Below, piece after piece: positions 15,564-34,858 of a DNA stretch of 64,000 nucleotides. The notes under the pieces were generated by a model. The model made no database searches and was not told the DNA's origin. It was given only the letters and a program-made list of their open reading frames with translations. Source of the stretch: Eudoraea chungangensis. Lineage in GTDB: Bacteria > Bacteroidota > Bacteroidia > Flavobacteriales > Flavobacteriaceae. Made by a program: the position numbers and the translations under genes. The stretch spans positions 124,001 through 188,000 of the forward strand of contig NZ_JARDUB010000002.1 in the NCBI RefSeq assembly GCF_029360665.1, in the 5' to 3' direction. Position 1 is the first letter of the stretch; the number at the start of each line of letters is the position of its first letter.

Positions 15564-15607
15564 CTGATCATTATCATGTTATTTCCAGCGCAGTACTTTT
15601 AGATTTG
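15564..15607 (+). promoter_or_regulatory. hemN promoter with FNR-type box
   Basis: TGAT-CATT-ATCA at 15565-15576 matches the core of the FNR consensus TTGAT-N4-ATCAA; the two outer bases differ. A perfect -7 element TAGATTTG lies at 15600-15607. The dyad centre would fall about 42 nt upstream of a transcription start near 15613. That is the class II activator position for FNR/CRP proteins and implies induction under low oxygen, fitting an oxygen-independent haem enzyme. A Crp/Fnr gene is present at 34070. Confidence 0.65.
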
Positions 15608-15624
15608 TGATAAATCTATTTTAG

Positions 15625-16986
15625 ATGTGCAGTTTGTTAAATAAATACAATATTCCAGGCCCAAGATATACAAGTTATCCAACGGTTCCCTATTGGGATT
15701 TGAATTCCTTTAGCGGAAAGGAATGGGAGCGGTCTGTAGTACAAAGTTTTGATGAATCCAATAATAAAGAAGGGATTAGTCTTTATATACACCTTCCTTT
15801 TTGTGAGCAAATGTGCACGTTTTGCGGATGTCATAAAAGGATAACAAAGCGTCATGAGGTAGAATTACCCTATATTTATTCTGTCTTACAAGAATGGAAG
15901 TTATACTGTAATTTATTTACAGAAAGACCAATAATCAAAGAACTTCATCTCGGTGGAGGTACCCCAACATTTTTTTCACCCCAGCATCTAGATAGGCTTA
16001 TTAAGGGCATACTTCTATTGGCAGATAAGCACAAGGATTATGAGTTTAGTTTCGAGGGTCACCCAAATAATACAACAAAAGCACACCTTAGCATTCTAAA
16101 AGACTTAGGCTTCAGCAGGGTTAGTTTTGGCGTTCAGGATTACAATGAAAAGGTTCAAAAGGCTATTCATAGAATTCAGACTTTTAAGAGTGTAGAAAAA
16201 GTAACTTCCTGGGCAAGAGAATTGGGATATACCTCCATTGGACATGATATTATCTTTGGTCTGCCACATCAGACAATGGCACATGTAAAAGAAACCATTT
16301 TGAAAACCAAAAAGCTACGCCCAGACCGACTAGCGTTTTACAGTTATGCGCATGTACCCTGGTTAAAAGGAAATGGGCAGAGAGGTTATTCAGATTCGGA
16401 TCTTCCATCTCCTGAATTAAAGAGAAGTCAGTATGAAAACGGCAAAAGGCTTTTAGCTGAAGTAGGTTATCATGAAATAGGAATGGATCATTTTGCACTA
16501 GAACAAGACACTTTGTACCAGGCATTACAGGAAGATAAACTCCATAGAAATTTTATGGGATATACGGCTTCTAAAACCCAGCTGATGATTGGACTAGGTG
16601 CCTCTAGTATTGGAGATAGTTGGTATGGATTTGCCCAGAATGTAAAAGGAATAGAAGAATACGAACATTTAGTTGCAAACAATGTAATTCCTATATTTAG
16701 AGGACATATTTTAACGCAAGAAGATCAGATTATTCGACGACATATATTAAATTTAATGTGTTCCTTTGAAACAAGCTGGCAAGAAGAACCGTCTAGCGAT
16801 GCCCCCATTAATACTATATTGGGACGTCTAAAAGAGATGGTCGAAGACGAATTATTGGTAATAGACGTTAATAGATTAGTAGTCACTGAAAAAGGAAAAC
16901 CGTTCATTAGGAATATTTGTATGGCTTTTGACTTGAGGCTTCATAAAAAGAAACCTGAAACAAGACTTTTTTCTATGACAATCTAA
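15625..16986 (+). CDS. hemN: Oxygen-independent coproporphyrinogen III oxidase
   Basis: Radical SAM enzyme that converts coproporphyrinogen III to protoporphyrinogen IX without oxygen. The 4Fe-4S/SAM motif is C60-x3-C64-x2-C67 followed by G-C69, the CxxxCxxCxC pattern that separates true HemN from HemW. YIHLPFCEQMCTFCGCHKR and GGGTPTFFSP (about residues 111-120) are diagnostic, and FGVQDYNEKVQKAIHR and the C-terminal HemN domain follow. The length (453 aa) is standard. The FNR-type promoter gives only about 12 nt of leader before ATG 15625. A universal stress gene follows 30 nt downstream and is probably cotranscribed. Confidence 0.95.
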   Translation: MCSLLNKYNIPGPRYTSYPTVPYWDLNSFSGKEWERSVVQSFDESNNKEGISLYIHLPFCEQMCTFCGCHKRITKRHEVELPYIYSVLQEWKLYCNLFTERPIIKELHLGGGTPTFFSPQHLDRLIKGILLLADKHKDYEFSFEGHPNNTTKAHLSILKDLGFSRVSFGVQDYNEKVQKAIHRIQTFKSVEKVTSWARELGYTSIGHDIIFGLPHQTMAHVKETILKTKKLRPDRLAFYSYAHVPWLKGNGQRGYSDSDLPSPELKRSQYENGKRLLAEVGYHEIGMDHFALEQDTLYQALQEDKLHRNFMGYTASKTQLMIGLGASSIGDSWYGFAQNVKGIEEYEHLVANNVIPIFRGHILTQEDQIIRRHILNLMCSFETSWQEEPSSDAPINTILGRLKEMVEDELLVIDVNRLVVTEKGKPFIRNICMAFDLRLHKKKPETRLFSMTI

Positions 16987-17016
16987 ACTTAATTTTTAAA
17001 CCTTAAAACAAAGAAT

Positions 17017-17841
17017 ATGAAAACGATAATAGTACCCATCGATTTTTCTGAGCAGTCTGAATATGCTTTAAAAGTGGCAGCTTCCTTGTCAAAAAAACAC
17101 GACTCCGAAATAATAGCACTTCATATGCTAGAGTTAAACGAAGCAATGATATCGTCTTCAGAAGGCTTTCATCCAGAGCAAACAGTTTTTTTATTGAAAA
17201 TGGCAGAAAAGAAGATTTCTGAGTTTTTACAAAAGCCATATTTGCAAGGAGTGAAGAAGGTTACCCCTATAATTAAACACTTTAAAGTTTTTAGTGAAGT
17301 AAACGATATTGCGGAGAGACACCAGGCCGATTTAATCATTATGGGATCACATGGTAGTGATGGACTAAAAGAAATATTTGTAGGTTCTAATGCAGAAAAA
17401 GTAGTGCGTAATTCTGCCATTCCTGTGTTAGTAATAAAAGATGAATTAGAAGACTTTAGGGTAGATAGTTTTGTTTTTGCCTGTGCATTTAAAGAAGAAA
17501 GCATAGCTGCTTTTAAGAAGGCACAAGAATTTGCTTCTAAATTATCTGCCAATTTACATCTGGTATATATAAATACACCTGGGGACAATTTCCTGAGCAA
17601 TAAAGACGCCTATGACAAAATAAATTCCTTTTTACAAAAAGCAGGTGCAGGAAAAGAGGTTACTATATATAATGACTATAGTGTTGAAAGAGGGGTATTA
17701 AATTACAGTGAGAGTATTAACGCTGATATTATTGGAATACCAACCCATGGGCGCAAAGGTTTATCACATTTTTTTATGGGAAGTATAGGAGAGGATATTA
17801 CCAACCATTCTAAGATTCCAGTAATGACTTTTAAAATATAG
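17017..17841 (+). CDS. Universal stress protein, tandem UspA domains
   Basis: Cytoplasmic stress protein of 274 aa with two UspA-like domains. Domain 1 opens MKTIIVPIDFSEQSEYALKVAASL and ends with the nucleotide-binding G-x2-G-x9-G(S) pattern (IMGSHGSDGLKEIFVGSNAEKVVRNSAIPVLVI). Domain 2 (from about residue 148) ends GIPTHGRKGLSHFFMGSIGEDITNHSKIPVMTF. It lies 30 nt after hemN and before a strong terminator, so it likely belongs to the same low-oxygen transcript. A second, similar protein lies at 34884 beside the Fnr regulator. Confidence 0.9.
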   Translation: MKTIIVPIDFSEQSEYALKVAASLSKKHDSEIIALHMLELNEAMISSSEGFHPEQTVFLLKMAEKKISEFLQKPYLQGVKKVTPIIKHFKVFSEVNDIAERHQADLIIMGSHGSDGLKEIFVGSNAEKVVRNSAIPVLVIKDELEDFRVDSFVFACAFKEESIAAFKKAQEFASKLSANLHLVYINTPGDNFLSNKDAYDKINSFLQKAGAGKEVTIYNDYSVERGVLNYSESINADIIGIPTHGRKGLSHFFMGSIGEDITNHSKIPVMTFKI

Positions 17842-17866
17842 AAACAACCTAGTATTTATGGAAGAG

Positions 17867-17895
17867 GGGTTATCTAGCAGATAACCCTTTTTTTA
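17867..17895 (+). terminator. Rho-independent terminator after hemN-usp
   Basis: A 9-bp perfect stem GGGTTATCT / AGATAACCC (17867-17875 and 17879-17887), a 3-nt loop and a run of about seven T (17888-17894). It lies 26 nt after the stress-protein stop. Confidence 0.9.
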
Positions 17896-17906
17896 TGCTT
17901 CATTTT

Positions 17907-17923
17907 AACGTCTTTTAGACGTT
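17907..17923. repeat. Palindrome AACGTCT-TTT-AGACGTT upstream of the RraA-like gene
   Basis: A perfect 7-bp inverted repeat with a 3-nt spacer, just after the terminator and about 130 nt before the RraA-like gene at 18051. It has no T-tract of its own. It may be a regulator operator for the sugar-acid genes that follow, or a chance hairpin. Confidence 0.35.
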
Positions 17924-18050
17924 GAGATTCTTATTCAAAAGAAGTTTTTTTCTAATAAGCGCATGAAGTGATTATTTACATGAGTATATGAAGGAAATTA
18001 TTAACTATCTTATTTCACTTAAAATAGATTTTTGAACCAACTTAACAGAC

Positions 18051-18977
18051 ATGAAAATTATGGGATTTAAATATTATTTTGTTATACTTTTTCTATGGAG
18101 TTTTCAAGGCTTTACACAGGCTATTTCCAAAGATCAAATGATTGCTTATACCAAAGAATGGAGCGGAGAACGCTTTGAGGATGGAAGACCTAAAATACCA
18201 GACAGTTATTTGGATCGTGCAAAAAATATTTCCATTGAAGAAGCATGGGGAGCTATGCGTGGATTAGGATACCACAATCAATTTGAGGGTAATTGGATGA
18301 TGATCCATGAAGACGTTGCTATGACAGGAAGAGCTTTAACAGCTCAATACATGCCTACAAGACCGGATATAGAAGAGGTTATTAAAGCTCAGGGAGAAAA
18401 AGAAGGGAGAATTGGTTCTTCCAATTCCTGGCCGATAGATGCTTTAGAGCAAGGAGACATATATATAGCAGATGGTTTTGGAAAAATTGTAGACGGAACT
18501 TTAATAGGGGATAATTTAGGGAATGCCATTTATGCAAACTCAGGTAATGGGGTTGTCTTTGACGGCTCGCTAAGAGACCTGGAAGGATTGAAAAAAATAC
18601 AAGGGTTTAATGCTTTTGTCCGCGGATGGGATCCATCTTTTATTAAAGACATGATGCTTACTGGCCTGAATAAACCAATACGAATTGGCCGTGCTACTGT
18701 AATGCCAGGCGATTTAGTACTGGCCAAAAGAGAGGGGGTTATTTTTATTCCGGCACATTTGGTAGAAGAGGTCATTACGCAAGCTGAATTTGTTGCATTG
18801 AGGGACGAGTTTGGACATTTGAGATTAAAAGAAGGCAAGTATACACCAGGACAAATAGATTCGAAATGGACAGATGAGATTAAGCAAGATTTTTTAAACT
18901 GGATAGACCAAAACCCTGAAAAATTGCCAATGAGTAGAGAAGAATTGGATGCTTATTTAAAAACCAGAACCTGGTAA
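18051..18977 (+). CDS. Exported RraA-family protein (aldolase-like)
   Basis: Member of the RraA/HMG-aldolase family (once called demethylmenaquinone methyltransferase-like). Such proteins act as 4-hydroxy-4-methyl-2-oxoglutarate or related aldolases, or as RNase E regulators in E. coli. Family signatures are GDNLGNAIYANSGNGVVFDGSLRDLEGL (central region) and PGDLVLAKREGVIFIPAHLVEEVI near residues 220-245. The 308-aa protein carries an N-terminal signal peptide (YYFVILFLWSFQGFTQA), so it should act outside the cytoplasm, which is unusual for the family. A shorter start at 18060 (MGFK) is possible. The Tat-exported enolase-superfamily gene follows, and the pair looks like an exported sugar-acid pathway. 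Confidence 0.8.
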   Translation: MKIMGFKYYFVILFLWSFQGFTQAISKDQMIAYTKEWSGERFEDGRPKIPDSYLDRAKNISIEEAWGAMRGLGYHNQFEGNWMMIHEDVAMTGRALTAQYMPTRPDIEEVIKAQGEKEGRIGSSNSWPIDALEQGDIYIADGFGKIVDGTLIGDNLGNAIYANSGNGVVFDGSLRDLEGLKKIQGFNAFVRGWDPSFIKDMMLTGLNKPIRIGRATVMPGDLVLAKREGVIFIPAHLVEEVITQAEFVALRDEFGHLRLKEGKYTPGQIDSKWTDEIKQDFLNWIDQNPEKLPMSREELDAYLKTRTW

Positions 18978-19014
18978 ATCAATGAAATAAAATTTGAATT
19001 ACAAAGAACAGCAT

Positions 19015-20445
19015 ATGAAAACATCTAAAAAATACGGCTCTAAAGAAGAGCTGGGGAGACCTAATGAAAATCAACGCAGATCCTTTCTGAAAAAGGCTGG
19101 TTTAGGAGGATTAAGTCTTGCAAGCTTTTCTATGGCTAGTGCCGCGGAACAGGTAGACTATGTTTCTCAAAAAGTTAATAGAAATTCTAGTCCCTCTACT
19201 CTGAAAATTACAGATATGAGGATTGCTGAAATAGGAGGAGATGTGGCCTTCAGAACCCCAATTGTTCGTATTTATACAAATCAGGGTATAGTTGGTCATG
19301 GAGATGTTAGAGATGGTGCGGCAAAGGAGTATGCCTTATTTTTAAAAAGTCGATTACTGGGAGAAAATCCTTGTAATGTAGAGCGTTTGTTTGGAATAAT
19401 AAAGCAATTTGGGTATCATGGAAGACAAGGAGGAGGGGTATCGGGTGTAGAAATGGCCCTATGGGACTTAGCTGGGAAGGCTTATAATGTTCCAGTTTAT
19501 CAAATGTTGGGAGGGAAGTATAGAGATAAGGTAAGAGTATATTGCGATACTACTGTTTCTAAAGACCCACATGAGTACGCCAACAGAATGCAGGCCAGAA
19601 TAGATCAGGGATATACGGCATTAAAAATGGATATTGGTATAAATCTTATCAAAGATATTCCCGGTGCAATAATTAATTCGCAAGACGCATCCTATAACCC
19701 ATATCAGTACGAATACCGTTCATACAATGAAACTAAACATCCATTTACCAGGGTTCAGATTACTGAGAAGGGAATAGAACTACTAATGGAGTATTTAGAG
19801 GTTATGCGCTCGAAAATTGGCTATGATATTCCTATGGGGACAGATCATTGGGGGCATTTTGGGGTAAATGAGGCGATAAAAATTGCCAGAGCCGCGGAAC
19901 CCTACAACCTTGCTTATATAGAGGACATAATTCCTTGGCAATACACGGAGCAATGGAAAGAAATAACTCTTGCTACCACAACACCAACGCAGACTGGTGA
20001 GGATATCTATAGATTAGAAGGGGGCTTTGAAGATTTGATTAACACACGCGCTGTAGATATTGTTCATCCAGACCCGAATACTGCAGGAGGTATACTCGAG
20101 TCTAAAAGAATTGGGGATTTTGCTTCAAAACATGGTATTGGCTTTATGCATCATCATGCAGCAGGACCAGTCTCATTTCTAGGATGCGTTCATAGTGCGG
20201 CAGCCACGGAGAATTTTATGTGGTTAGAACACCACGCAGTAGACAAAAAAGACTGGGAGAATCTGGTGACCGGTTTTGAAGGTCCTATCGTTGAAGATGG
20301 TTATGTTAAGGTACCGGATAAACCTGGTTTGGGGGTCGAGTTAAACGAAGAAATGGTGAAGAAATACCTTATTAAGGGTGAAAAATTATTTGCACCAACG
20401 CCCGAGTGGGATGAGATCAGGGCCTGGGACAGGCTTTGGAGTTAG
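19015..20445 (+). CDS. Tat-exported enolase-superfamily (mandelate racemase/muconate lactonizing type) enzyme
   Basis: Mg-dependent enzyme that abstracts a proton alpha to a carboxylate; a sugar-acid dehydratase is the likeliest role. The signal carries a twin arginine, R21-R22-S-F-L-K-K, followed by a hydrophobic stretch (AGLGGLSLASFSMASA). The catalytic lysine region is TALKMDIG. Candidate metal ligands lie in GTDHWG, YIEDIIPW and TGEDIYR, and a catalytic His region is GFMHHHAAGP. The start is taken at ATG 19015; an in-frame TTG at 18994 is less likely. It lies 37 nt after the exported RraA-like gene and converges, 2 nt apart, with the PIG-L gene. The substrate is not identifiable by eye. 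Confidence 0.87.
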   Translation: MKTSKKYGSKEELGRPNENQRRSFLKKAGLGGLSLASFSMASAAEQVDYVSQKVNRNSSPSTLKITDMRIAEIGGDVAFRTPIVRIYTNQGIVGHGDVRDGAAKEYALFLKSRLLGENPCNVERLFGIIKQFGYHGRQGGGVSGVEMALWDLAGKAYNVPVYQMLGGKYRDKVRVYCDTTVSKDPHEYANRMQARIDQGYTALKMDIGINLIKDIPGAIINSQDASYNPYQYEYRSYNETKHPFTRVQITEKGIELLMEYLEVMRSKIGYDIPMGTDHWGHFGVNEAIKIARAAEPYNLAYIEDIIPWQYTEQWKEITLATTTPTQTGEDIYRLEGGFEDLINTRAVDIVHPDPNTAGGILESKRIGDFASKHGIGFMHHHAAGPVSFLGCVHSAAATENFMWLEHHAVDKKDWENLVTGFEGPIVEDGYVKVPDKPGLGVELNEEMVKKYLIKGEKLFAPTPEWDEIRAWDRLWS

Positions 20446-20447
20446 AA

Positions 20448-21323
20448 TCAGTCTTTTCCTATCATGGGGAAAAGTATTTTGATTTCTTCATCTGTTGGTT
20501 GCTTGCCATATTCACATATTTCAAAACCTTCTGCTTTTTTAATACTCTGGGCTTTATCGCCATACCATTTAACCAAGGATTCCTTGGTGGCCTTATCTAA
20601 AGGAGCGGACCTCCAATTTGAAAGCCAATTCATTCGGTCTTCGTCCTTCTTCGGTACCTTATCCAAATTTCCACTGGTCCATGGCAGCCATTCAAAAAAT
20701 TGTGATTCATGCGCAGAAAGGGCGTAGATTTTTTGTTGAAATACCGAGTCTATGTTTATCGCAATGTCTGGACGAAATTTATTTGGTCTTTGGAAGTTAT
20801 CATGGGAGTATACAAAGACTGGATTCTTTTTTAGAGGAGGGGTGTCCGCTGCTACATTTGGTACAATAACCATATATGCGGCATCCTGAACAAGAATTCC
20901 AGTATATCGGTGATCAGGATGGTAGTCATTTGGTCTTGGTGCAATCACAAGATCTGCATTCCACGTTCTAATTTCTCGAATTACCTTCAACCTATTTTCT
21001 AAGGTAGGCATTAATTCCCCATCATGATTGTCTAAAACCTTATAGGTTACTCCAAACCTTTTCGCTGCTTCTTGTGCCTCTGCCATTCTAATTTTTGCTA
21101 AAGCACCACCGCCTTTTTCAAAATGGCCTGCATCACCGTTAGTTAAGGATACAAATTTAACTTTATGACCCATTTTGGAATATAAGATAGCGGTACCACC
21201 TGCATCAATATCACAGTCGTCTGGATGGGCTCCAAATACTACTATATTTAATACCTGGTCTTGGCTAAAGGAAATATGGCTTGCCAGAATAAAGCATAGA
21301 CTGAAAAAGAACGACTTTAACAT
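20448..21323 (-). CDS. Exported PIG-L (LmbE-like) deacetylase family protein
   Basis: Zinc-dependent N-deacetylase fold, usually acting on N-acetylglucosaminyl groups, 291 aa. A signal peptide (LKSFFFSLCFILASHISFSQ) precedes VVFGAHPDDCDIDAGG, the H-P-D-D zinc/catalytic motif at about residues 32-36. NDYHPDHRYTG carries the third zinc ligand. It lies 6 nt downstream of the Gfo/Idh/MocA oxidoreductase on the same strand. Together they suggest periplasmic processing of an amino sugar or glycoconjugate. The substrate is inferred only from the family. Confidence 0.88.
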   Translation of the reverse strand: MLKSFFFSLCFILASHISFSQDQVLNIVVFGAHPDDCDIDAGGTAILYSKMGHKVKFVSLTNGDAGHFEKGGGALAKIRMAEAQEAAKRFGVTYKVLDNHDGELMPTLENRLKVIREIRTWNADLVIAPRPNDYHPDHRYTGILVQDAAYMVIVPNVAADTPPLKKNPVFVYSHDNFQRPNKFRPDIAINIDSVFQQKIYALSAHESQFFEWLPWTSGNLDKVPKKDEDRMNWLSNWRSAPLDKATKESLVKWYGDKAQSIKKAEGFEICEYGKQPTDEEIKILFPMIGKD

Positions 21324-21329
21324 AAGGAT

Positions 21330-22721: not shown

Positions 22722-22799
22722 AAAATAGTTTTGTCAGTTGCCTATTATGGATTAAGTGTTTAAGATAGGGTTTTTTGCCTATTGCAACAACTTAATTAA

Positions 22800-23330
22800 T
22801 CACGGGAGTGTTGTCTGCGGAAAGGAATATTTGTCGATAAAGTTTTTATAACTGCCACGAGAAGGGTGCTTTTTGGTTATGTATATATTCTCTTTTTCCA
22901 AAGTCTTTAAGACGTCCAATATATCTAATTGCCTTTCTTTATAAGGATTGATTTTGCCCCAGGCAATTAAGACTATGTCTGCCAGCAGAATTTGTTCCTT
23001 TATTATTTTATCATTTTTTGCTCCAACGGCTTTTCTATCCCCCTTAAAATTTTTGGTTTGTACCATGGCAAACTGATTTACTATGGCCATTTTTGAGACA
23101 TTTTCAAAAGGGAAGTCCTTGTTTACAAATACAAGTTTTTCTAAAAAATGAACAGATTTGTCTGCTACAGTACTATCCGCAACACTAGGATTTTGCATTA
23201 TCACACATAGGTTCTGGCCATTGCTAGGAGAAATCCGTTCAATTATCAGGTTATATCTAAAGACTTTGTCTGAAGAAAAAAAAGCAGTTGCTTTTATGTC
23301 GGTAATATGTTGGAAGGTTTTAGTAGACAT
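22800..23330 (-). CDS. DUF1643-family protein
   Basis: Cytoplasmic protein of unknown function; the family is recognised by CVIMQNPSVADSTVADKS near the N-terminus (asparagine-proline-serine-x-alanine-aspartate) and by VLIAWG in the second half. The start is uncertain: ATG 23330 (MSTKTFQH) leaves a 13-nt gap after the haemoglobin stop, while an earlier ATG at 23363 would overlap that gene by 20 nt. The product is about 176 aa from 23330. It is probably cotranscribed with the truncated haemoglobin. No function can be assigned. Confidence 0.75.
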   Translation of the reverse strand: MSTKTFQHITDIKATAFFSSDKVFRYNLIIERISPSNGQNLCVIMQNPSVADSTVADKSVHFLEKLVFVNKDFPFENVSKMAIVNQFAMVQTKNFKGDRKAVGAKNDKIIKEQILLADIVLIAWGKINPYKERQLDILDVLKTLEKENIYITKKHPSRGSYKNFIDKYSFPQTTLP

Positions 23331-23343
23331 GGTTTTAATAGAC

Positions 23344-26036: not shown

Positions 26037-26044
26037 CTATTTTA

Positions 26045-26491
26045 CTAATAATTGATACTTTTCTTAACTAGATATTCTTTATCCAGACAAGTCCAGAATA
26101 TTTTTATGTCCCAACGACCATCCAATAAACGTTTGTCAGGTATGAGCAAATGTGTGTCGGATTTACCTATTGGCAGGTTGAAATCCAGGTGTTTATTGGA
26201 TGGCCTATATAGGAACACTTTTCCATCTATTGATTTACAGTCTAAGGCTTCAGGAAATTCAATTATTAAACCAGTTTCTTCCGGGATATATTTAAAACTC
26301 TCCGCCAGCGGTTGGGCATTCTGCATGGCATCTATTTCCTTTTGATAGGCTAATTCTTCCTTGTAATATTCCTCTGTTACAAGATCATGATTAGCTCTAT
26401 CATCAGAACTTGCTATAACAACAAAGTAGAGGATGAAGGAAATAAATGCTATAAAGGCTAATACAATGCTCGTTCCCCAGTTTAATTTCAT
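26045..26491 (-). CDS. ccoH: FixH/CcoH family protein
   Basis: Single-pass inner-membrane protein, 148 aa, needed for assembly or stability of cbb3 cytochrome oxidase. One N-terminal transmembrane helix (WGTSIVLAFIAFISFILYFVVIA) is followed by a small periplasmic domain with YKEELAYQKEIDAMQNA and a C-terminal GRWDIKIFW, both typical of FixH. It lies 21 nt after ccoG. Confidence 0.9.
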   Translation of the reverse strand: MKLNWGTSIVLAFIAFISFILYFVVIASSDDRANHDLVTEEYYKEELAYQKEIDAMQNAQPLAESFKYIPEETGLIIEFPEALDCKSIDGKVFLYRPSNKHLDFNLPIGKSDTHLLIPDKRLLDGRWDIKIFWTCLDKEYLVKKSINY

Positions 26492-26512
26492 AGTTTAATT
26501 TTTATGGAAGCT

Positions 26513-27922
26513 TTAATTAAAGCTTCTTGGAGCCAAGAACCTCGCGGTTGTGGTTTCTATTAATTTATCACCGCTGTAAACTCCAATTTTTAATTTGTCT
26601 TTATCACCAGTCAAGGCCGAATTATTAATCTCAATAAATAGAGTTCCTTCCGCAAGTTGCTGTGAGGGAACTGTAAAGGAAGTATAGGATACTAACTTTA
26701 TATCGCCTTTATGCGACATTAATTTAAAACGTACGTCTTTTATGTCCTTGGATGTTTTATTCACTAATTTATAGGTGTATACATTGCTAATGATGTTTCC
26801 TTCTTTGTGCTCGTATAACTGGCCGGGCAAGCGTAGTATGTTGGCCTCCAAGTCGTTCCTAAGAAACAACATTCCGATAAGAATAAAAGTAAGTATTCCT
26901 AAAACTGCGGCATAACCCTTTAAGCGTGGTGTAAAAGTAAACCTGGCTTTCTTTTCAATATTATCTTCACTGGCATATCGAATTAAGCCTTTCGGAAGAT
27001 TCACTTTTTCCATAATGGAATCACATTCGTCTATACAGGCGGTGCAATTTACACATTCTAATTGGGTCCCGTTTCTTATATCTATTCCCGTAGGACATAC
27101 ATTAACACATTGAAAGCAGTCTATACAATCGCCATGGCCTAGAGCGCTACGATCTTCATTTTTTCTAAATTTCTTTCGTCCTTTTTCCCCTTCCCCTCTC
27201 TTATGATCATAGGCCACCACAATTGATTTATTGTCAAGAAGAACACCTTGCATCCTTCCATAGGGGCAGGCTATTATGCATACCTGTTCTCTAAACCAAG
27301 CAAAAACAAAGTAAAATACAGAGGTGAATATTAAGAGGGATATCAGGGTGCTTAAATGGAGCAATGGCCCATCGGTTACATATTGAATCAGTCTGTCACT
27401 ACCTATTAAATAGGCCAGGAAGACATTGGCTATTAAAAAGGAAATTATAAAGAAAATAAACCATTTTAAGAGGCGCTTTCTAATCTTTTCGGCATTCCAT
27501 GCCTGCTTATCCAATCTAATTTGTGCTCCTCTATCTCCATCTATCCAGTATTCGATTCTTCTAAAAACCATTTCCATAAAAATGGTCTGTGGACACATCC
27601 ATCCACAAAAAATTCTTCCAAAGGCTACGGTAAACAAGGCAATAAATATCACTCCTATTATCATAGAAACAACAAACAAGTGAAAGTCTTGTGGCCAAAA
27701 AGGAAACCCAAAAATATTAAAACGCCTTTCCAAGACATTAAACATTAAAAACTGGTTTCCATTGACTTTAATAAAAGGGGAGGAGAATAGAAAGATGAGT
27801 AGAATATAACTTACCCATTTTCTATATTGATAGAGTTTTCCACTAGGTTTTTTGGGAAACACCCAAGCCCTTTTTCCTTCTTCATTGATAGTAGCTATAC
27901 TATCTCTAAAATTTTCTTCCAT
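26513..27922 (-). CDS. ccoG: Cytochrome c oxidase accessory protein CcoG (4Fe-4S membrane protein)
   Basis: Polyferredoxin-type membrane protein, 469 aa, that acts as a cupric reductase or assembly factor for cbb3 oxidase. About five membrane helices come first. FCGWMCPQTIF and CIIACPYGRMQGVL follow, then two clusters: CIDCFQCVNVCPTGID and CVNCTACIDECDSIM (about residues 268-305). The C-terminal part is an immunoglobulin-like periplasmic domain. A 102-nt gap separates it from ccoP, where no FNR-type box is seen, so cotranscription with the oxidase genes is likely. Confidence 0.95.
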   Translation of the reverse strand: MEENFRDSIATINEEGKRAWVFPKKPSGKLYQYRKWVSYILLIFLFSSPFIKVNGNQFLMFNVLERRFNIFGFPFWPQDFHLFVVSMIIGVIFIALFTVAFGRIFCGWMCPQTIFMEMVFRRIEYWIDGDRGAQIRLDKQAWNAEKIRKRLLKWFIFFIISFLIANVFLAYLIGSDRLIQYVTDGPLLHLSTLISLLIFTSVFYFVFAWFREQVCIIACPYGRMQGVLLDNKSIVVAYDHKRGEGEKGRKKFRKNEDRSALGHGDCIDCFQCVNVCPTGIDIRNGTQLECVNCTACIDECDSIMEKVNLPKGLIRYASEDNIEKKARFTFTPRLKGYAAVLGILTFILIGMLFLRNDLEANILRLPGQLYEHKEGNIISNVYTYKLVNKTSKDIKDVRFKLMSHKGDIKLVSYTSFTVPSQQLAEGTLFIEINNSALTGDKDKLKIGVYSGDKLIETTTARFLAPRSFN

Positions 27923-28024
27923 TTATGACAATACTTTTCAGTGTTTCCATGATAGAAACGTATAGTTTTATCAAAAACCTGTGAGCCAATAGGTCTCAAC
28001 AGCTTTTATTTGGAATTGTATAAA

Positions 28025-28912
28025 CTAATCTGTAGTTTCTTCCTCTACCCATATATCCCCTTCAGCCACCTTGGGATTCGCAGCGGTTGTGCCTTGAAAA
28101 CTGAGAACGTAACTAGCTACTTGTGCCATTTCTAAGGGTTTTAAGGTCTGTTTCCAGGCTACCATACCCTTGCCAGCTCTTCCTCCTTCTGCAATGGTGT
28201 TGAATACATTTTTAATGCCTCCACCCAAAATCCAATATTCGTCCGTTAGATTAGGTCCAATACCTCCACCTCCGTCGGCCATATGACAGGCAACACAACT
28301 GGTTTCGAAGATAGACTTGCCGGCATTTAGGTCCGAAGCCTCCGTAAGTAATTCTACAGTATTTACGTCTACAAGGTTCTTTGCTGTTTTTTTATACGCT
28401 TCTATGGCAATTTGTGCCTCAGCAACTTCCTGATCGTATTCTAAATCCTGATCGTAGTCATTGAAAATGTGAAACCTAACCAGATATATTACACCAAAAA
28501 GAATGGTGGCATAGAAGAGATAAACCCACCATGGAGGTAAATCATTATCTAACTCCTTGATTCCATCATAGTTATGGTCTAATATAATTTCACCTTCCGC
28601 TTCTATTGGCTTAGATCCTAATAGTTTGGAATACATTTTTTTGCCCCATGCCCATTCTCTAGATTGAGATTTAGACTTTAAATATTTCTCTTTTGCTTCC
28701 TCTGAAAGAGTCTGAAACATAACGTTTTCAATAGACTTTAATACAAGTTCTATCGCAATCAGAATTAATAAAACAAGTAAAAGGAAAAACTGGGTAATTG
28801 GGTATTCGATAAAGGCTGGTTTTTCACCAGAATCGATAAAAAACTCCATCAAGCCAAAGATGACAAAGAATATAACAGGGATTCGAATCCACCAGGGTGA
28901 CATATTTTTCAT
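28025..28912 (-). CDS. ccoP: cbb3-type cytochrome c oxidase subunit CcoP
   Basis: Membrane-anchored c-type cytochrome that feeds electrons to CcoO/CcoN. Two hydrophobic segments near the N-terminus and a third about residues 125-145 (PPWWVYLFYATILFGVIYLVRF) anchor it. The single haem site is C-V-A-C-H in FETSCVACHMADGGGGIGPNL, with a distal methionine in AGKGMVAWKQ. Proteobacterial CcoP has two haems; one haem is usual in Bacteroidota. Length 295 aa. It overlaps ccoQ by 4 nt, showing translational coupling. Confidence 0.95.
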   Translation of the reverse strand: MKNMSPWWIRIPVIFFVIFGLMEFFIDSGEKPAFIEYPITQFFLLLVLLILIAIELVLKSIENVMFQTLSEEAKEKYLKSKSQSREWAWGKKMYSKLLGSKPIEAEGEIILDHNYDGIKELDNDLPPWWVYLFYATILFGVIYLVRFHIFNDYDQDLEYDQEVAEAQIAIEAYKKTAKNLVDVNTVELLTEASDLNAGKSIFETSCVACHMADGGGGIGPNLTDEYWILGGGIKNVFNTIAEGGRAGKGMVAWKQTLKPLEMAQVASYVLSFQGTTAANPKVAEGDIWVEEETTD

Positions 28913-29100
28913 GTGTTTGATTGTTTTGGTTGATTATCTTCTAAAGGTATTTCACTTACTTCTTTGATATGTTCTTTGGAAGCGGTAAAAACCCACCAAA
29001 AAAGAATAGTAAAGAATACAAAGAATATAAGTAATGAAATCATCGGATAGGTAGCTATACCTTCCATACTTTCCATGTGATTTTTGATAAATTTTAGCAT
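28909..29100 (-). CDS. ccoQ: cbb3 oxidase small subunit CcoQ
   Basis: Single-span membrane protein of 63 aa (PMISLLIFFVFFTILFWWVFTAS) followed by a short polar tail. Position between the CcoNO fusion and CcoP, with a 3-nt gap to the former and a 4-nt overlap with the latter, identifies it as CcoQ, which stabilises the oxidase. Confidence 0.85.
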   Translation of the reverse strand: MLKFIKNHMESMEGIATYPMISLLIFFVFFTILFWWVFTASKEHIKEVSEIPLEDNQPKQSNT

Positions 29101-29103
29101 AAC

Positions 29104-31305
29104 TTACTTATTTTCAGATAGTAATTCGGAATTATCTTTTATTTTAATATCGGTACCCAGTCTTTGCAGGTAGGCGATAAGAGAAACAATTTCTCTGTCT
29201 CTCATTTCCACAAAATCAAGACCATTTTCCTTTGCATACTGCTTATCCGCTTCGTAGGATTTTACAAAATCCGGAGCGGCATAAAGGTTTTCTTCTATTT
29301 GAAGAGCCTGTTTTGCCATTGATTCCATAGCATTGCTTATATCCTCTTCTGTATAGGGCACCCCAAGGCTTACCATGGCTTCCATTTTACTCTGAACTCC
29401 ACTTCTGTCGTGTTCATCGGTTATTAACCATTGATAGGCCGGCATTATGGAACCGGAAGAGGTGCTTTGCGGATCGTACATATGATTAAAATGCCAACTA
29501 TCGGAATATTTTCCACCTACTCTTAACAAATCAGGTCCTGTTCGCTTACTCCCCCAAAGGAAAGGATGGTCATAAACAAATTCTCCTGCTTTGGCGTATT
29601 CACCATAACGCTCCACTTCACTTCTAAACGGACGAATCATTTGAGAATGACATCCCACACAACCTTCACGAATATATAAATCTCGCCCTTCGAGCTCTAG
29701 AGGGGTATAGGGTTTTACGCTAGTAATCGTAGGAATGTTTGATTTTACCAAAATAGTAGGAACTATTTGCACAACACCGCCTATAAGAATTGCTATAGTA
29801 GCAAAAATGGTTAATTGAATTGGTTTTCTTTCTAACCAAGTGTGGTAGGTTTCTCCTGCTGTTCTCTTTTTAGATACACGGGTTAACGCAGGAGCTTCTG
29901 CTAATTCATCTTCCACCTTGCTTCCCGATCTAACAGTCACCACTATATTATAAAGCATTACAATAAAACCAACAATGTACAGGCTGCCACCAATGGCCCT
30001 CATCCAATACATTGGAATAATTTCATTTACGGTTTCAAGGAAGTTACCGTAAACCAGAGAACCGTCTGGATTAAACTCTTTCCACATTAGAGCCTGAGTG
30101 AACCCAGCTACGTACATAGGTAGGGCATACAAAATAATTCCAAGTGTGCCAATCCAAAAATGAAAATTAGCCATTGGAACGGAAAACAATCTGGTCTTAA
30201 ACATTTTAGGAACAAGCCAATAGACCATTCCAAAAGTTAAGAAACCGTTCCAGGCTAGTGCCCCAACGTGTACATGGGCAATAATCCAATCGCTAAAATG
30301 AGCTATAGCATTTACGTTTTTTAAGGAAAGCATGGGGCCTTCAAATGTGGCCATACCGTATCCTGTAATCGCGACAACCATAAATTTAAGAGTAGGATCT
30401 GTGCGAACCTTATCCCATGCACCACGTAAGGTAAGAAGCCCATTAATCATCCCACCCCATGAAGGAGCAATTAACATCACCGAGAAAGCAACTCCTAAAT
30501 TTTGTGCCCAGTCTGGTAATGAAGAGTAAAGAAGGTGGTGGGGTCCTGCCCAGATATATATAAAAATCAATGACCAAAAATGGACAATAGAAAGTCGGTA
30601 AGAATAGACTGGTCTATTGGCTGCTTTCGGAACAAAATAGTACATCAATCCTAAAAATGGTGTGGTAAGGAAAAAAGCCACGGCATTGTGTCCATACCAC
30701 CATTGCACTAAGGCGTCCTGGACACCGGCATATACAGAGTAGCTCTTTAATGCACTTACGGGCAATTCTAAGCTGTTAAAAATATGTAGTACCGCAACGG
30801 TAACAAAAGTGGCCAGGTAAAACCAAATTGCCACGTAGAGATGTCGCTGTCTTCTTTTGATCATGGTGCCGATGAGGTTTACTCCAAAGGCAACCCATAC
30901 TAAGGCAATTGCAATATCAATTGGCCACTCTAATTCTGCATATTCCTTTGAGGTAGTATAACCAAGAGGAAGCGTTATGGCGGCAGCCACAATAATGGCC
31001 TGCCATCCCCAGAAATTAAAATTGCTGAGAAAATCGCTAAACATCCTGGCTTTAAGCAATCTTTGGGTAGAGTAATAAATTCCTGCATAAATAGCATTGC
31101 CCACAAAAGCAAAAATAACCGCATTAGTATGCAAAGGTCTTAGGCGCCCAAAACTCAACCAAGAGATGCCATCTGTGATGGTTGGGAATAGAAACATGAA
31201 AGCAAGTAATAAACCTACTAGCATCCCAATAATACCCCAAAATAGAGTGGCATAGAGGAATTTTTTTACGATTTTATTGTCGTAATAGAATTGTTGTATT
31301 TCCAT
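29104..31305 (-). CDS. ccoNO: cbb3-type cytochrome c oxidase, fused CcoN and CcoO subunits
   Basis: Catalytic subunit of the high-affinity terminal oxidase. Residues 1-about 480 are the haem-copper subunit I (CcoN): haem/copper histidines lie in LRPLHTNAVIF, VQWWYGHNAVAFFLTTPFLG, IYIWAGPHHLLYS and DWIIAHVHVGALAWNG. A linker with one membrane span follows, then the CcoO monohaem cytochrome with YIREGCVGCHSQMIRPFRSE and a distal methionine in GSIMPAYQW. The fusion (733 aa) is characteristic of Bacteroidota. The gene starts 2 nt after ccoS. It builds the proton-pumping oxidase used at low oxygen. Confidence 0.96.
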   Translation of the reverse strand: MEIQQFYYDNKIVKKFLYATLFWGIIGMLVGLLLAFMFLFPTITDGISWLSFGRLRPLHTNAVIFAFVGNAIYAGIYYSTQRLLKARMFSDFLSNFNFWGWQAIIVAAAITLPLGYTTSKEYAELEWPIDIAIALVWVAFGVNLIGTMIKRRQRHLYVAIWFYLATFVTVAVLHIFNSLELPVSALKSYSVYAGVQDALVQWWYGHNAVAFFLTTPFLGLMYYFVPKAANRPVYSYRLSIVHFWSLIFIYIWAGPHHLLYSSLPDWAQNLGVAFSVMLIAPSWGGMINGLLTLRGAWDKVRTDPTLKFMVVAITGYGMATFEGPMLSLKNVNAIAHFSDWIIAHVHVGALAWNGFLTFGMVYWLVPKMFKTRLFSVPMANFHFWIGTLGIILYALPMYVAGFTQALMWKEFNPDGSLVYGNFLETVNEIIPMYWMRAIGGSLYIVGFIVMLYNIVVTVRSGSKVEDELAEAPALTRVSKKRTAGETYHTWLERKPIQLTIFATIAILIGGVVQIVPTILVKSNIPTITSVKPYTPLELEGRDLYIREGCVGCHSQMIRPFRSEVERYGEYAKAGEFVYDHPFLWGSKRTGPDLLRVGGKYSDSWHFNHMYDPQSTSSGSIMPAYQWLITDEHDRSGVQSKMEAMVSLGVPYTEEDISNAMESMAKQALQIEENLYAAPDFVKSYEADKQYAKENGLDFVEMRDREIVSLIAYLQRLGTDIKIKDNSELLSENK

Positions 31306-31307
31306 AA

Positions 31308-31520
31308 TTAGAATTTTTCGCTTTTATTTAGTTGGATTGATTTATTATTTTTTGGTGGTAAAGGGGCAGTCTTTTTAACGATTTCGTCTTCAAATAACAT
31401 CCGTATAGAAGGAGTATAAGAGTCGTCATACTGTCCATTATTAACAGAAAATATAAAGGCCGCCAAGAATACTAAGGCAACAAAAATACTTATGGCAAGC
31501 AATAAATAAATAACACTCAT
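31308..31520 (-). CDS. ccoS: cbb3 oxidase assembly protein CcoS
   Basis: 70-aa protein with one N-terminal membrane helix ([23 protein letters not shown]) and a polar tail containing [20 protein letters not shown], the CcoS signature. It is required to load cofactors into the oxidase. The gene has a possible promoter of its own, with an FNR-type dyad at 31571-31582 that includes the stop codon of ccoI. Confidence 0.92.
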
Positions 31521-31539
31521 ACCTAGGGAAAATCTGGCG

Positions 31540-31582
31540 TAAAACTACATTGAACAACTACTTTATAAAATGACATATGTCA
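31540..31582 (-). promoter_or_regulatory. FNR-type box and possible -7 element before ccoS-NOQP
   Basis: TGAC-ATAT-GTCA at 31571-31582 is a perfect palindrome and matches the TGA-N6-TCA core of FNR/CRP sites. On the minus strand its first TGA is the ccoI stop codon. A possible -7 element, TAGTTTTA (minus strand, 31547-31540, 7 of 8 matches), starts 29.5 nt from the dyad centre, the same distance as at hemN. It would give separate low-oxygen control of the oxidase structural genes. Confidence 0.55.
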
Positions 31583-33970
31583 GTTTTTTGGATTTATTCT
31601 TTTTCCGATGCGATTGCTAGCTAAGGTAGCAAAAGATACAATACTAATGGAGCTTAATGGCATTAAAATAGCCGCAATTACGGGCTCTAATTGGCCAGTT
31701 ACGGCAAAATAAAGTCCAACAACATTATATAGTAGGGAAAAAACGAAACACATTTTAATTATTTGAATAGCCTTTCTACTTGCCGATATAAATCCGTGGA
31801 GGTCCTTTAGTCTGGAGGCATCCAAAATACCATCACAGGCAGGCGAAAACACATTGGTATTTTCTGAAATCGCAATACCAACATTGCTCTGTGCCAAAGC
31901 ACCTGCATCATTTAATCCATCCCCGACCATTAGTACGTTTTTACCATTTTCCTGAAGCTCTTTTATAAAATTGAGTTTATCGGCAGGTTTTTGATTAAAA
32001 TACAATGGAATTAACTTGGGCAATAACTTCTGAAGTCTGGATTTTTCAGAGGCATTGTCCCCCGATAAAATGGCAATGTCTAAAGACTTTTGCAATGCTC
32101 TAAAAAGATCAGACAAGCCATCTCTATACGTATTGGAAAAAACAAAACAACCTTTGTAATCATTATTTGCACTTATGTGAACAGTGGTGTTTATTAAATT
32201 CTTTTCTTCTTTAAAACCCACAAAATCCGCAGACCCAATTTTAACAACTCTTCCATCTTTCTCTCCTTTAACCCCTTTACCAACATGTTCTTCATACTCA
32301 TCTAAGGTATAAATATTTTGTCCTTTTAACAGCACGTATAGAGAGCGGCCTAGAGGATGATTGGTAGCCCGTAAAGTATTTTTTATAAGTGATTCTTCCT
32401 CCTTATTTAGTTGAAGGCCATTATAGGATATACTATCAATTCCTGTACTGGTAATGGTTCCGGTCTTGTCGAAAATAGCTGTATTAACCTGTGCTAATTG
32501 TTCAATGACCGAGCTGTCTTTAAGGAAGAATTTCTTTTTCCCAAAAATCCGGAGCATGTTGCCCAAGGTGAAAGGAGCAGCCAGTGCTATAGCACAGGGG
32601 CATGCAATAATGAGAACAGCAGTAAAGACATTTAGGGCTCTAGAACTGTCTATAAAGAGCCAATAAGAGGTAGCTAGCACTGCGATAGTTAATACAGCAA
32701 TGGTAAATCGCTTCCCGATACTATCTGTCAGGGTCTGAAATTGTAGCTTTTTATTTTTCTTAAAAATGGCATTACTCCACAATTGGGTGAGGTAACTTTG
32801 CGAAACACTTTTTAAAGCTTCAACTTCTAAAGCCCCGTGGCATTGACGCCCTCCGGCATATAGCTTTTCCCCAGCTTTCTTTACAATCGGTTGCGACTCC
32901 CCGGTGACGAAACTATAGTCTATAAGGCCGTCTCCTTTCTGTAAAACCCCATCTACCGGGATTAATTCCTCGTTTCTAATGAGTAAATAATCCCCGGCTT
33001 TAATGTCATAGACTTGTACATTTTCTTCCCTTCCTTTAGAATCCAATCTGGTAACGGCAATTGGAAAATAGGACTTATAATCTCGTTCAAAAGACAAAAA
33101 AGAATAGGTCTTTTGCTGAAAGTACCTGCCTATTAAAAGAAAAAACACTAATCCGGCAAGGCTATCAAAAAAACCGGATCCCTGATCTGTGGCAATGTCG
33201 TAGGTACTGCGTAAAAATATCACTAGTATTCCCAATGCGATGGGTACATCAATATTCAAGATTCCAGATCTCAGCCCCTTATACGCCGAGGATAAATATT
33301 CATTTCCGGCATAAAACACAACGGGAATAGAAAAGCTGAACATTAGCCAGCGAAAAAGAACTTTGTATTGTTCTAACCAGTATTCATTGACCTCAAAATA
33401 CTCTGGGAATGATAAAAACATAATATTGCCAAAGGCAAAACCCGCAATACCCAGCTTATACAATATTGTGCGATCTGTTTTTGATTCTTTTGCATCTAGA
33501 TCTTCTAAAGAGATATATGGCTCATAGCCTATTTTTGTTAGTAAATAGACTAACTTTTTAACGGAAGTTATCTCGGTGTTTATGGAAACACGTATAGTTT
33601 TTTTTGGAAAATCTACTTGGGACTCTACAACCCCTGCCATTAACTTTTTCAGATTCTCTAAAACCCATATACAGGAACTACAATGGATTGATGGAATATA
33701 AAATGAAATGACCTGTAAACCACCATCTTCAAATTCTAAAAGGGAAGCAAGAATTTCGGGATTATCCAGGAAGTCATATTTTCCTTTTGTAATGGTAGGT
33801 GAAGTGCCTGCATTCTCTTCTAAATCGTAATAATAGCTGAGGTCGTTAGACTGGAACATTTCGTACACCGCCTTACAACCCGAACAACAGAAATTTTTAT
33901 TATCATAAAATGTAGAATACCCACGGCAAGGATCACCGCAATGGTAACATTTTGTAAATTCCATGAGCAC
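31580..33970 (-). CDS. ccoI: Copper-translocating P-type ATPase CcoI/FixI
   Basis: P1B-type ATPase (796 aa) that exports copper for assembly of the cbb3 oxidase. The N-terminus has a cysteine-rich zinc-ribbon-like motif (CYHCGDPC, CCSGCKAVYE) and a heavy-metal-associated domain with C-S-S-C (SIHCSSCIWVLENL). Membrane CPC is in IIACPCAIALAAP. Other motifs are TGESQPI, DKTGTIT and GDGLNDAGAL. Start at ATG 33970 or, two codons later, 33964. It diverges from the fnr-like gene across a 99-nt region with a TGA-N6-TCA box. Confidence 0.94.
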   Translation of the reverse strand: MLMEFTKCYHCGDPCRGYSTFYDNKNFCCSGCKAVYEMFQSNDLSYYYDLEENAGTSPTITKGKYDFLDNPEILASLLEFEDGGLQVISFYIPSIHCSSCIWVLENLKKLMAGVVESQVDFPKKTIRVSINTEITSVKKLVYLLTKIGYEPYISLEDLDAKESKTDRTILYKLGIAGFAFGNIMFLSFPEYFEVNEYWLEQYKVLFRWLMFSFSIPVVFYAGNEYLSSAYKGLRSGILNIDVPIALGILVIFLRSTYDIATDQGSGFFDSLAGLVFFLLIGRYFQQKTYSFLSFERDYKSYFPIAVTRLDSKGREENVQVYDIKAGDYLLIRNEELIPVDGVLQKGDGLIDYSFVTGESQPIVKKAGEKLYAGGRQCHGALEVEALKSVSQSYLTQLWSNAIFKKNKKLQFQTLTDSIGKRFTIAVLTIAVLATSYWLFIDSSRALNVFTAVLIIACPCAIALAAPFTLGNMLRIFGKKKFFLKDSSVIEQLAQVNTAIFDKTGTITSTGIDSISYNGLQLNKEEESLIKNTLRATNHPLGRSLYVLLKGQNIYTLDEYEEHVGKGVKGEKDGRVVKIGSADFVGFKEEKNLINTTVHISANNDYKGCFVFSNTYRDGLSDLFRALQKSLDIAILSGDNASEKSRLQKLLPKLIPLYFNQKPADKLNFIKELQENGKNVLMVGDGLNDAGALAQSNVGIAISENTNVFSPACDGILDASRLKDLHGFISASRKAIQIIKMCFVFSLLYNVVGLYFAVTGQLEPVIAAILMPLSSISIVSFATLASNRIGKRINPKN

Positions 33971-34018
33971 TTGCTTATACCTAACTGCGAAATTGTAGTA
34001 ATTTAAAGAAAATATATA

Positions 34019-34030
34019 TGATATTTGTCA
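34019..34030. promoter_or_regulatory. FNR-type box in the ccoI / fnr divergent promoter region
   Basis: TGAT-ATTT-GTCA lies between the two divergent genes. For ccoI (minus strand) the dyad centre is 27.5 nt from a weak -7-like element (TACAATTTC starting at 33997). For the fnr-like gene the dyad overlaps a -7-like GATATTTG (34020-34027), an arrangement suited to self-repression. Both readings are inferences from spacing. Confidence 0.55.
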
Positions 34031-34069
34031 GCTTTTCAATAATTTTAATCCTAATTAAAGCCATAAAAG

Positions 34070-34765
34070 ATGGGGTCAGAAAGTAGATGTGAGAATTGTA
34101 TAATTAGACAATTTAATTCTTTGCGTGCCATGAGTAAAGAAGAATTAAAGAAAGTTTCGGATTCTAAAGTGGTTAAAAAGGTAAAGAAAGGGGAAGCGAT
34201 ATTTGAAGAAGGCGATAAGCTCAACGGCGTTTTCTGTGTAAGGGATGGTGTTTCTAAACTTTCAAAGCTAAGCTCCAATGGAAAAGATCAAATTGTTAAA
34301 CTAGCAAGCAAGGGAGAGGTTATGGGACAGCGTTCTGTAATTTCGGAGGAAAGCGCCAATTTAAGCGCTGTTGCCGTAAATGATATGCAATTGTGTTATA
34401 TTCCAAAAGAAGTAATTGTTGACAGTCTTCATAAAAATCCAGATTTCACGCTAGAAGTTCTTAGGCATATGGCTAATGATTTAAGGGAGGCCGATGATGT
34501 GATTGTAAATATTTCCCAAAAAACGGTAAAACAAAGAATAGCAGAGGCTTTTATTTATCTCAAAACTAATTTTGGAGAAGATAAGGAAGGTTACTTGCTT
34601 CTAGTCCTTTCTAGAGAGGATATCGCGAATGTAGTCGGTACCGCTACCGAATCTTGTATTAGAATAATCTCGGAGTTTAAGAAAAAAGGACTCCTCAAAA
34701 GCTCTGGTAAAAGACTGGGCATTATTGATGAGAAAAAATTAAGAGACCTCGCAGAAGGTTTTTAG
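34070..34765 (+). CDS. Crp/Fnr-family transcriptional regulator, FNR-like
   Basis: Dimeric DNA-binding regulator, 231 aa: N-terminal cyclic-nucleotide-like beta-roll (about 20-120), dimer helix (125-150) and C-terminal helix-turn-helix (SREDIANVVGTATESCIRIISEFKKKG region). E194 and R198 in the recognition helix match the E..R pair of CRP/FNR that reads TGA half-sites, in line with the boxes nearby. Of the E. coli FNR cluster ligands, C20, C23 and C122 have likely counterparts C7, C10 and C109 (MQLCYIP versus MVCEIP), but the C29 position is N16. It probably controls the cbb3 operon. A redox or oxygen sensing mode is inferred. Confidence 0.85.
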   Translation: MGSESRCENCIIRQFNSLRAMSKEELKKVSDSKVVKKVKKGEAIFEEGDKLNGVFCVRDGVSKLSKLSSNGKDQIVKLASKGEVMGQRSVISEESANLSAVAVNDMQLCYIPKEVIVDSLHKNPDFTLEVLRHMANDLREADDVIVNISQKTVKQRIAEAFIYLKTNFGEDKEGYLLLVLSREDIANVVGTATESCIRIISEFKKKGLLKSSGKRLGIIDEKKLRDLAEGF

Positions 34766-34817
34766 TGTTTTTTTGTCTTAAGGAAGATGCAAAATATAGG
34801 GGAGTCCTTGTAAAACC

Positions 34818-34858
34818 TGACAATTATCATTGTTTCCCCCTAGAGACACCTATATTTT
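34818..34858 (+). promoter_or_regulatory. FNR-type box and possible -7 element before the universal stress gene
   Basis: TGAC-AATT-ATCA at 34818-34829, with TATATTTT at 34851-34858 (7 of 8 matches to TAnnTTTG) starting 27.5 nt from its centre. A transcription start near 34865 would give class II geometry. A better-scoring TATTTTTG at 34875-34882 lies too close to the ATG at 34884 unless the transcript is leaderless. Confidence 0.5.

Follow-up and report, generated by a model that had tools for sequence, protein, structure and literature searches.

Does a single low-oxygen switch govern the cbb3-type cytochrome oxidase genes, hemN and the universal stress protein gene that accompany an FNR-like regulator gene in Eudoraea chungangensis, and which protein would operate it? 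The DNA concerned is a stretch of 64,000 nucleotides (nt) on contig NZ_JARDUB010000002.1 (positions 124,001 to 188,000; hereafter the window), from a host genome of 3.73 Mb. An earlier note on this stretch had read four TGA-N6-TCA dyads, situated before hemN, before ccoS, between ccoI and the FNR-like gene (fnr) and before a universal stress protein gene (usp), as sites of one low-oxygen regulon, each in the class II activator position. This proposal is strongly supported by the footprints at orthologous promoters, the genome-wide spacing and the target genes, with the exception of the dyad at 34019 in its direction towards fnr. We consider it likely that the boxes are the operators of one low-oxygen regulon and that they are read mainly by the regulator encoded at 34070, and probably also by a second protein, a fusion of a receiver domain with a CRP/FNR-type regulator, which is encoded outside the window.

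The dyads and their -7 elements

All four dyads were found where the earlier note had placed them (15565, 31571, 34019 and 34818); together with the -7 elements of the adjoining promoters they read as follows.

15565 to 15576, plus strand: FNR-type dyad TGATCATTATCA 5' of hemN, its centre 29.5 nt upstream of the -7 element
15600 to 15607, plus strand: -7 element of the hemN promoter, TAGATTTG, an exact TAnnTTTG
31571 to 31582, minus strand: FNR-type dyad TGACATATGTCA 5' of ccoS, overlapping the ccoI stop codon
31540 to 31547, minus strand: -7 element of the ccoS promoter, TAGTTTTA, at +29.5 from the dyad centre
34019 to 34030, no strand: FNR-type dyad TGATATTTGTCA between ccoI and the regulator gene
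33988 to 33995, minus strand: -7-like element of ccoI, CAATTTCG, at +29.5 from the centre of the 34019 dyad
34040 to 34047, plus strand: -7-like element of the regulator gene, TAATTTTA, at +15.5 from the centre of the 34019 dyad
34818 to 34829, plus strand: FNR-type dyad TGACAATTATCA 5' of usp
34853 to 34860, plus strand: -7 element of the usp promoter, TATTTTTA, at +29.5 from the dyad centre

Short dyads of this kind might be chance matches in A+T-rich DNA. Indeed, the window shows no enrichment of the plain TGA-N6-TCA (23 occurrences versus a shuffle mean of 17.9, with 11 of 100 shuffles reaching at least 23), and TTGA-N6-TCAA is without clear excess in the own genome (97 versus 87 reversed). 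The count in shuffled sequence that the earlier note had named as a possible refutation therefore came out at chance level for the plain dyad, but above chance for the composite of dyad and fixed spacing: TGAY-N4-RTCA followed after 23 nt by TANNTTT occurs three times in the window (hemN, ccoS, usp); 400 Markov-1 simulations averaged 0.022 and all stayed below this count. The narrower TGAY-N4-RTCA is matched by all four dyads and, counted by eye, by 3 of the 19 other dyads of the window. With the conservation, the spacing and the genome-wide excess described below, an origin by chance is refuted and retains next to no probability.

The spacing had been given as 27.5 or 29.5 nt, of which only the latter is conserved; at the 34818 dyad TATATTTT is also present at 27.5, yet the element at 29.5 is the one kept by orthologs. 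When TGAC-N4-RTCA followed by TANNTTT was scanned over 31 spacings in six genomes, the matches listed, which cover three genomes completely, a fourth in part and none of the remaining two, numbered 150; 60 of them fell at 23 nt, whereas the other 30 spacings held a mean of 3.0 and a maximum of 8 among the matches listed. The class II site of Escherichia coli FNR is centred at -41.5. Since the -7 box TAnnTTTG of Flavobacterium psychrophilum occupies -12 to -5, according to the available part of PMC9723704, a distance of 29.5 nt places the dyad centre at this same -41.5; by geometry, with the -7 placement taken from another flavobacterium, the boxes would be class II sites. The main text of that article contains no word beginning with Fnr or Crp, and its available part describes no operator.

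Conservation at orthologous promoters

The footprint set comprised 79 relatives and the window, which is one row in each count (80 relatives fetched; those without both flanking genes on the contig were left out), and TGAR-N4-YTCA served as control pattern. TGAY-N4-RTCA was present in 80 of 80 ccoI-regulator gaps (control 3), in 76 of 76 ccoS upstream regions (control 3) and in 79 of 79 usp upstream regions (control 0). The first of these counts takes the whole gap, and in three loci the box is about 790 nt away from the regulator gene; within the 250 nt before the regulator match the box was found in 71 of 80. At each of the three places the letters of the box vary in at least 12 versions, so that the conservation is not plain sequence identity. 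All ccoS and usp rows have TA at +29.5/+30.5, and the flanks of the dyad are likewise conserved, A-rich on the 5' side and T-rich on the 3' side, giving roughly AAA-N2-TGAY-N4-RTCA-N2-TTT.

Across the family, represented by one genome per genus including the own one, the box preceded hemN in 27 of 30 genera (control 0 of 30; the best 30 of 43 hemN matches), TANNTTT being placed at precisely +29.5 in 26 of 30, and ccoS in 29 of 30 genera (control 0; the best 30 of 48 ccoNO matches). The sole missing ccoS box (L234) is uninformative, because the contig offers just 294 nt upstream.

Genome-wide sites and target genes

The own genome contains 17 composite sites versus 2 reversed controls. Over 60 genera, 954 sites were counted versus 62 controls, the sites exceeding the controls in 55 genera, equalling them in three and falling below them in two. 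Among 247 Bacteroidota genomes the excess was clearest in the same family (51 versus 1 in G103, 43 versus 2 in G134); outside the family it was weaker, and many genomes of other families had next to none.

The target list of the own genome holds 22 rows with spacings of 21 to 24. Besides hemN, ccoS and usp, it includes genes for TonB, a flavin oxidoreductase, a 1-Cys peroxiredoxin, Hsp20, Usp, DoxX, thioredoxin, a LytTR response regulator, a YgaP-like protein, a WG-repeat protein and three small unknown proteins, as well as the first gene of the nosZ cluster (cytochrome c). Spacings other than 23 precede the genes for a ferritin/Dps-like protein, a CBM48 protein and a Pta-type protein (AAA_26 and DRTGG domains) adjoining acetate kinase. 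Two rows (L010, L017) sit within genes and resemble chance matches. In five other genera, 80 of 81 boxes were examined (one of the 15 of G280 was left out): 69 of the 80 were followed within about 220 nt by an ATG-started open reading frame (ORF) of at least 45 codons, and 14 were overlapped by an open frame of at least 100 codons on either strand, some of these looking like chance. HemN and FixS (CcoS) genes were box-linked once in each of the five genera; further box-linked genes encode Usp, pyruvate formate-lyase, phosphate acetyltransferase, a NapC-type cytochrome, Rrf2, a thioredoxin-like protein and S30EA. Judged by gene content, the targets would constitute a regulon of low-oxygen genes.

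Three arrangements of target genes were seen in addition. In the own genome (L139, 3273 to 14001), the nosZ cluster and a divergent Rrf2 gene share a box-bearing intergenic region, and in G262 (L292) a box is likewise followed by an Rrf2 gene. A segment of G270 (contig C1, 559529 to 591759) has five similar box promoters, as if a target family had multiplied together with its promoter. In G288 (L274, L275), two adjoining tonB-like genes carry a box each, the second ORF having been read for 67 codons only.

The FNR-like regulator

The candidate for the main reader is encoded between two of the boxes.

34070 to 34765, plus strand: FNR-like regulator of 231 amino acids (Cys7, Cys10, Cys56, Cys109; recognition residues E194, I197, R198)

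The protein contains the cyclic-nucleotide-type domain PF00027 and the CRP helix-turn-helix PF13545, both above cut-off. Its nearest orthologs among those found belong to Eudoraea and other Flavobacteriaceae (identity up to 87%), and its nearest solved relatives are 2gau and the FNR structures of the A. fischeri type. Without exception, the 81 near-ortholog rows and the 31 rows of a wider set, in which the window protein is counted twice, have Cys7, Cys10, Cys56 and Cys109. In FNR, the dimerisation of which is controlled by an oxygen-labile 4Fe-4S cluster, the cluster ligands are C20, C23, C29 and C122: C20 is aligned with Cys7, C23 with Cys10 and C122 with Cys109, whereas Cys56 is aligned with an alanine. 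According to the jelly roll topology, the strands of Cys56 and Cys109 should presumably be neighbours.

A survey of possible cluster ligands over 116 rows (window protein counted twice) gave 84 rows with CxxC, Cys56 and Cys109, six of them flagged by regular expression for a third N-terminal cysteine, and 20 rows with CxxC, a third N-terminal cysteine and Cys109 and without Cys56; nine rows had none of these cysteines, two had Cys56 and Cys109 without CxxC and one had the N-terminal cysteines only. Since the cysteines vary as a set, they are read as the ligands of a four-ligand cluster of which one has moved; the survey speaks for such a ligand swap, though its rows share descent. A second FNR-like class in the family (L380 to L387, L389 and similar loci) lacks Cys56 and has three cysteines at the N-terminus, in most cases Cys109 as well, and a helix of the GTTEEQVIR kind.

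A sensor of carbon supply has also to be considered, as CRP/FNR homologs of Flavobacteriales grouped near MalR were predicted to be in a metagenome-assembled genome of this order (available part of PMC8510549). That prediction rests on the grouping near MalR and may concern another protein; as the targets are respiratory and anaerobic and the four cysteines invariant, a carbon signal appears very improbable.

When compared with E209, S212 and R213 of FNR, the recognition helix retains the glutamate and the arginine, and the position of Ser212 is isoleucine in 81 of 81 rows. The fit of E194 and R198 to TGA half-sites, on which the earlier note had relied, holds in so far as both residues are present, but they are common to other CRP/FNR classes in these genomes and are in consequence weak evidence for this protein in particular. 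Its putative binding to the boxes is supported by the position of the box before its own gene, at a distance of at most 300 nt in 22 of 23 family orthologs (own included) and in 24 of 27 in further genera.

Who reads the boxes?

When the own genome was searched with the window regulator as query (E 1e-3), it returned the regulator itself and one fusion only, a protein of 351 amino acids composed of receiver, cyclic-nucleotide-type and helix-turn-helix domains (PF00072, PF00027, PF13545), whose gene adjoins a histidine kinase gene (PAS-HisKA-HATPase, three PAS stretches). Its recognition residues E316, I319 and R320 match E194, I197 and R198, and among the aligned fusions E and R are found in 23 of 23 and I in 22 of 23. 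Six boxes lie in the 20 kb around the fusion gene (L140) and a seventh at L141:154, all of them between ORFs. This island (L140, 1 to 20000, and the start of L141) contains five Usp-like genes, of which one was tested by Pfam and the others were judged from their N-termini, together with genes for thioredoxin, an S30EA-type protein, the PAS kinase and the fusion.

Some other CRP/FNR paralog might instead read the boxes, for example one of the DNR or HcpR kinds, which are nitric-oxide sensors, and the targets would then form a nitrosative-stress regulon; the nosZ genes among them and the E and R shared by other classes would accord with this. The core conserved targets, however, are hemN and the cbb3 oxidase, the FNR-like gene sits between box-bearing genes, and the search just described yielded no further paralog. 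Another paralog as reader is accordingly considered quite improbable.

The two candidates were followed over the 60 genera, an FNR-like regulator being defined as a profile match of E<=1e-70 starting at position 3 or earlier (37 of 60) and a fusion as a match of E<=1e-70 over both parts (25 of 60). FNR-like regulators alone were found in 23 genera, fusions alone in 11, both in 14 and neither in 12, although two genomes of the last group (G265, G287) do carry a more distant four-cysteine homolog; the composite sites averaged 12.8, 17.6, 28.9 and 5.1, respectively. Together with the persistence of boxes in the different sets, these counts indicate that boxes and regulators are associated in a roughly additive manner and not one-to-one.

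If the fusion were the main reader, with the PAS kinase supplying the signal through phosphorylation, the protein encoded at 34070 would govern few or no boxes. Such a division would explain why genera with the fusion alone retain boxes, at ccoS in 6 of 6 and at hemN in 5 of 7 cases (classes set against the hemN rows by hand), and why they have the higher mean of the two single-regulator sets, and it agrees with the matching recognition residues and with a box at most 120 nt past the matched stretch in 22 of 25 fusion loci. Nevertheless, the 23 genera with an FNR-like regulator and without fusion still average 12.8 composites, and a box precedes the FNR-like gene almost throughout (22 of 23 and 24 of 27), but the fusion gene at a distance of at most 300 nt in just 1 of 25. 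A leading role of the fusion is therefore judged unlikely, and a common operator of both proteins probable.

Several observations weigh against the 34070 protein as the main, oxygen-responsive reader. It scores 104.9 bits with the NCBIfam model of Fnr (NF008365), below the cut-off of 228, though this is still the best of 13 families listed. The third N-terminal cysteine of FNR (C29) has no equivalent, the aligned residue being Asn16 here and Ser, Asn or once Thr in the wider ortholog set. The AlphaFold2 model, built with 25 close orthologs, is weak (mean predicted local distance difference test, pLDDT, 63.4; predicted template modelling score, pTM, 0.42), and nothing was drawn from it. Orthologs outside the family mostly have no box before their own gene (1 of 7 has one). 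Boxes persist in the fusion-only genera without a close ortholog of the window regulator; G053, G130 and G234 show a site excess and no regulator match at 1e-30, G292 (82% complete) has 31 sites and neither regulator was found in it, and G247, in which the FNR-like regulator is present, has 6 sites versus 7 controls.

On balance, the dyads are best taken as the operators of a single low-oxygen regulon that is typical of Flavobacteriaceae. An FNR-like dimer would bind the extended dyad centred at -41.5 and, once bound, act as class II activator of a promoter that requires TAnnTTTG as its -7 element. The regulator encoded at 34070 would be the main reader, active at low oxygen and probably carrying an oxygen-labile iron-sulfur cluster on Cys7, Cys10, Cys56 and Cys109. 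The fusion beside the PAS histidine kinase probably reads the same operator, adding stress targets, and would stand in for the FNR-like regulator where the latter is missing.

The 34019 box and autoregulation

Towards ccoI, [CT]ANNTTNG was found at 29.5 nt in 61 of 80 loci, the window included. Towards fnr, a -7 element lies at 29.5 nt in 53 of 80 loci and at 15.5 nt in 22 of 80, one locus having both; rows within a clade are not independent in these spacing classes. The window belongs to the 15.5 set, and no -7 element was found in it towards fnr at 29.5 nt from the 34019 dyad. The claim of a class II position at all four sites thus holds at this box for ccoI, but not for fnr in this clade. 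A -7 element at 15.5 nt places the dyad centre at -27.5, inside the promoter, so that repression of fnr is expected; from this geometry, fnr would be activated in the 29.5 class and repressed in the 15.5 class, and the -27.5 box suggests negative autoregulation in the clade of the window.

More tentatively, and at somewhat less than an even chance, the observations may be joined into one picture: an oxygen-sensing FNR lineage of the Bacteroidota's own, in which one cluster ligand would have left the N-terminal loop and be provided by the beta-roll instead (Cys56), which could be replaced by an operator-sharing, FixJ-FixK-like fusion and whose autoregulation would change sign from clade to clade, depending on whether the dyad and the -7 element of fnr are 29.5 or 15.5 nt apart.

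Genes of the window

The genes next to the boxes are the following.

15625 to 16986, plus strand: hemN, oxygen-independent coproporphyrinogen III oxidase (TIGR00538, 407 bits, cut-off 325)
17017 to 17841, plus strand: universal stress protein gene, 30 nt 3' of hemN (PF00582)
26045 to 26491, minus strand: ccoH/fixH (PF05751)
26513 to 27922, minus strand: ccoG (TIGR02745, 424 bits)
28025 to 28912, minus strand: ccoP (FixP_N, PF14715)
29104 to 31305, minus strand: ccoNO fusion, cbb3 oxidase subunits I/II (NF011053, 1355 bits)
31308 to 31520, minus strand: ccoS, 70 amino acids, opening the cbb3 oxidase block; box-linked orthologs in other genera match FixS (PF03597)
31580 to 33970, minus strand: ccoI, P-type ATPase of cbb3 assembly (PF12156, PF00122), present at 79 of 80 relatives' loci
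34884 to 35729, plus strand, ATG at 34884: usp, universal stress protein gene (PF00582), present at 78 of 80 relatives' loci

The universal stress protein gene at 17017 likely shares a transcript with hemN. The listed ORF of ccoI starts with GTG at 33970; the ATG at 33964, two codons on, may be the likelier start. Between the regulator gene and usp, the gap at the relatives' loci has a mean of 133 nt.

Comparison with known systems

The low-oxygen switch of the Bacteroidota is poorly described, and a literature search limited to open-licence PMC papers found no FNR regulon of this phylum. The present analysis provides a large bacterial family with a precise operator, its position, a target list that includes the nitrous oxide reductase cluster and two candidate regulators, and offers a testable change in the way an FNR-type protein may hold its cluster.

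With the FNR proteins of Escherichia coli and Aliivibrio fischeri (PDB 5cvr, 5e44), the window regulator shares the CRP/FNR fold, the N-terminal CxxC, the cysteine aligned with C122 and the E and R of the recognition helix, and its putative regulon shares the dyad centre at -41.5 and the inclusion of hemN and anaerobic enzymes. In contrast to FNR, it lacks the third N-terminal cysteine, has an invariant Cys56 in place of alanine and isoleucine in place of Ser212; the boxes have no fixed TT before TGA, and the promoter is of the -7 type TAnnTTTG. By these sequence features the window regulator is not a standard FNR.

In Pseudomonas, the Anr regulator and its promoters are proteobacterial. The hemN gene is a target, as is predicted for the window, being included in the Anr core regulon according to the available part of PMC6588701. 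Flavobacterium psychrophilum has the same promoter type, and under oxygen limitation its cbb3 oxidase is strongly induced and its heme enzymes are raised, as described in the available part of PMC9723704.

The second candidate, a chain of receiver and CRP/FNR output with an adjoining kinase, is by its architecture a two-component regulator whose output is of the FixK type. FnrN and FixK have a box in common, as is proposed here for the FNR-like regulator and the fusion. In Rhizobium leguminosarum, FnrN, FixK and hFixL-FxkR form FNR-type and two-component oxygen routes, with fixNOQP as a FixK target (available part of PMC7888657); whereas response regulator and FixK are separate proteins there, receiver and CRP/FNR output form one chain in the fusion of E. 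chungangensis.

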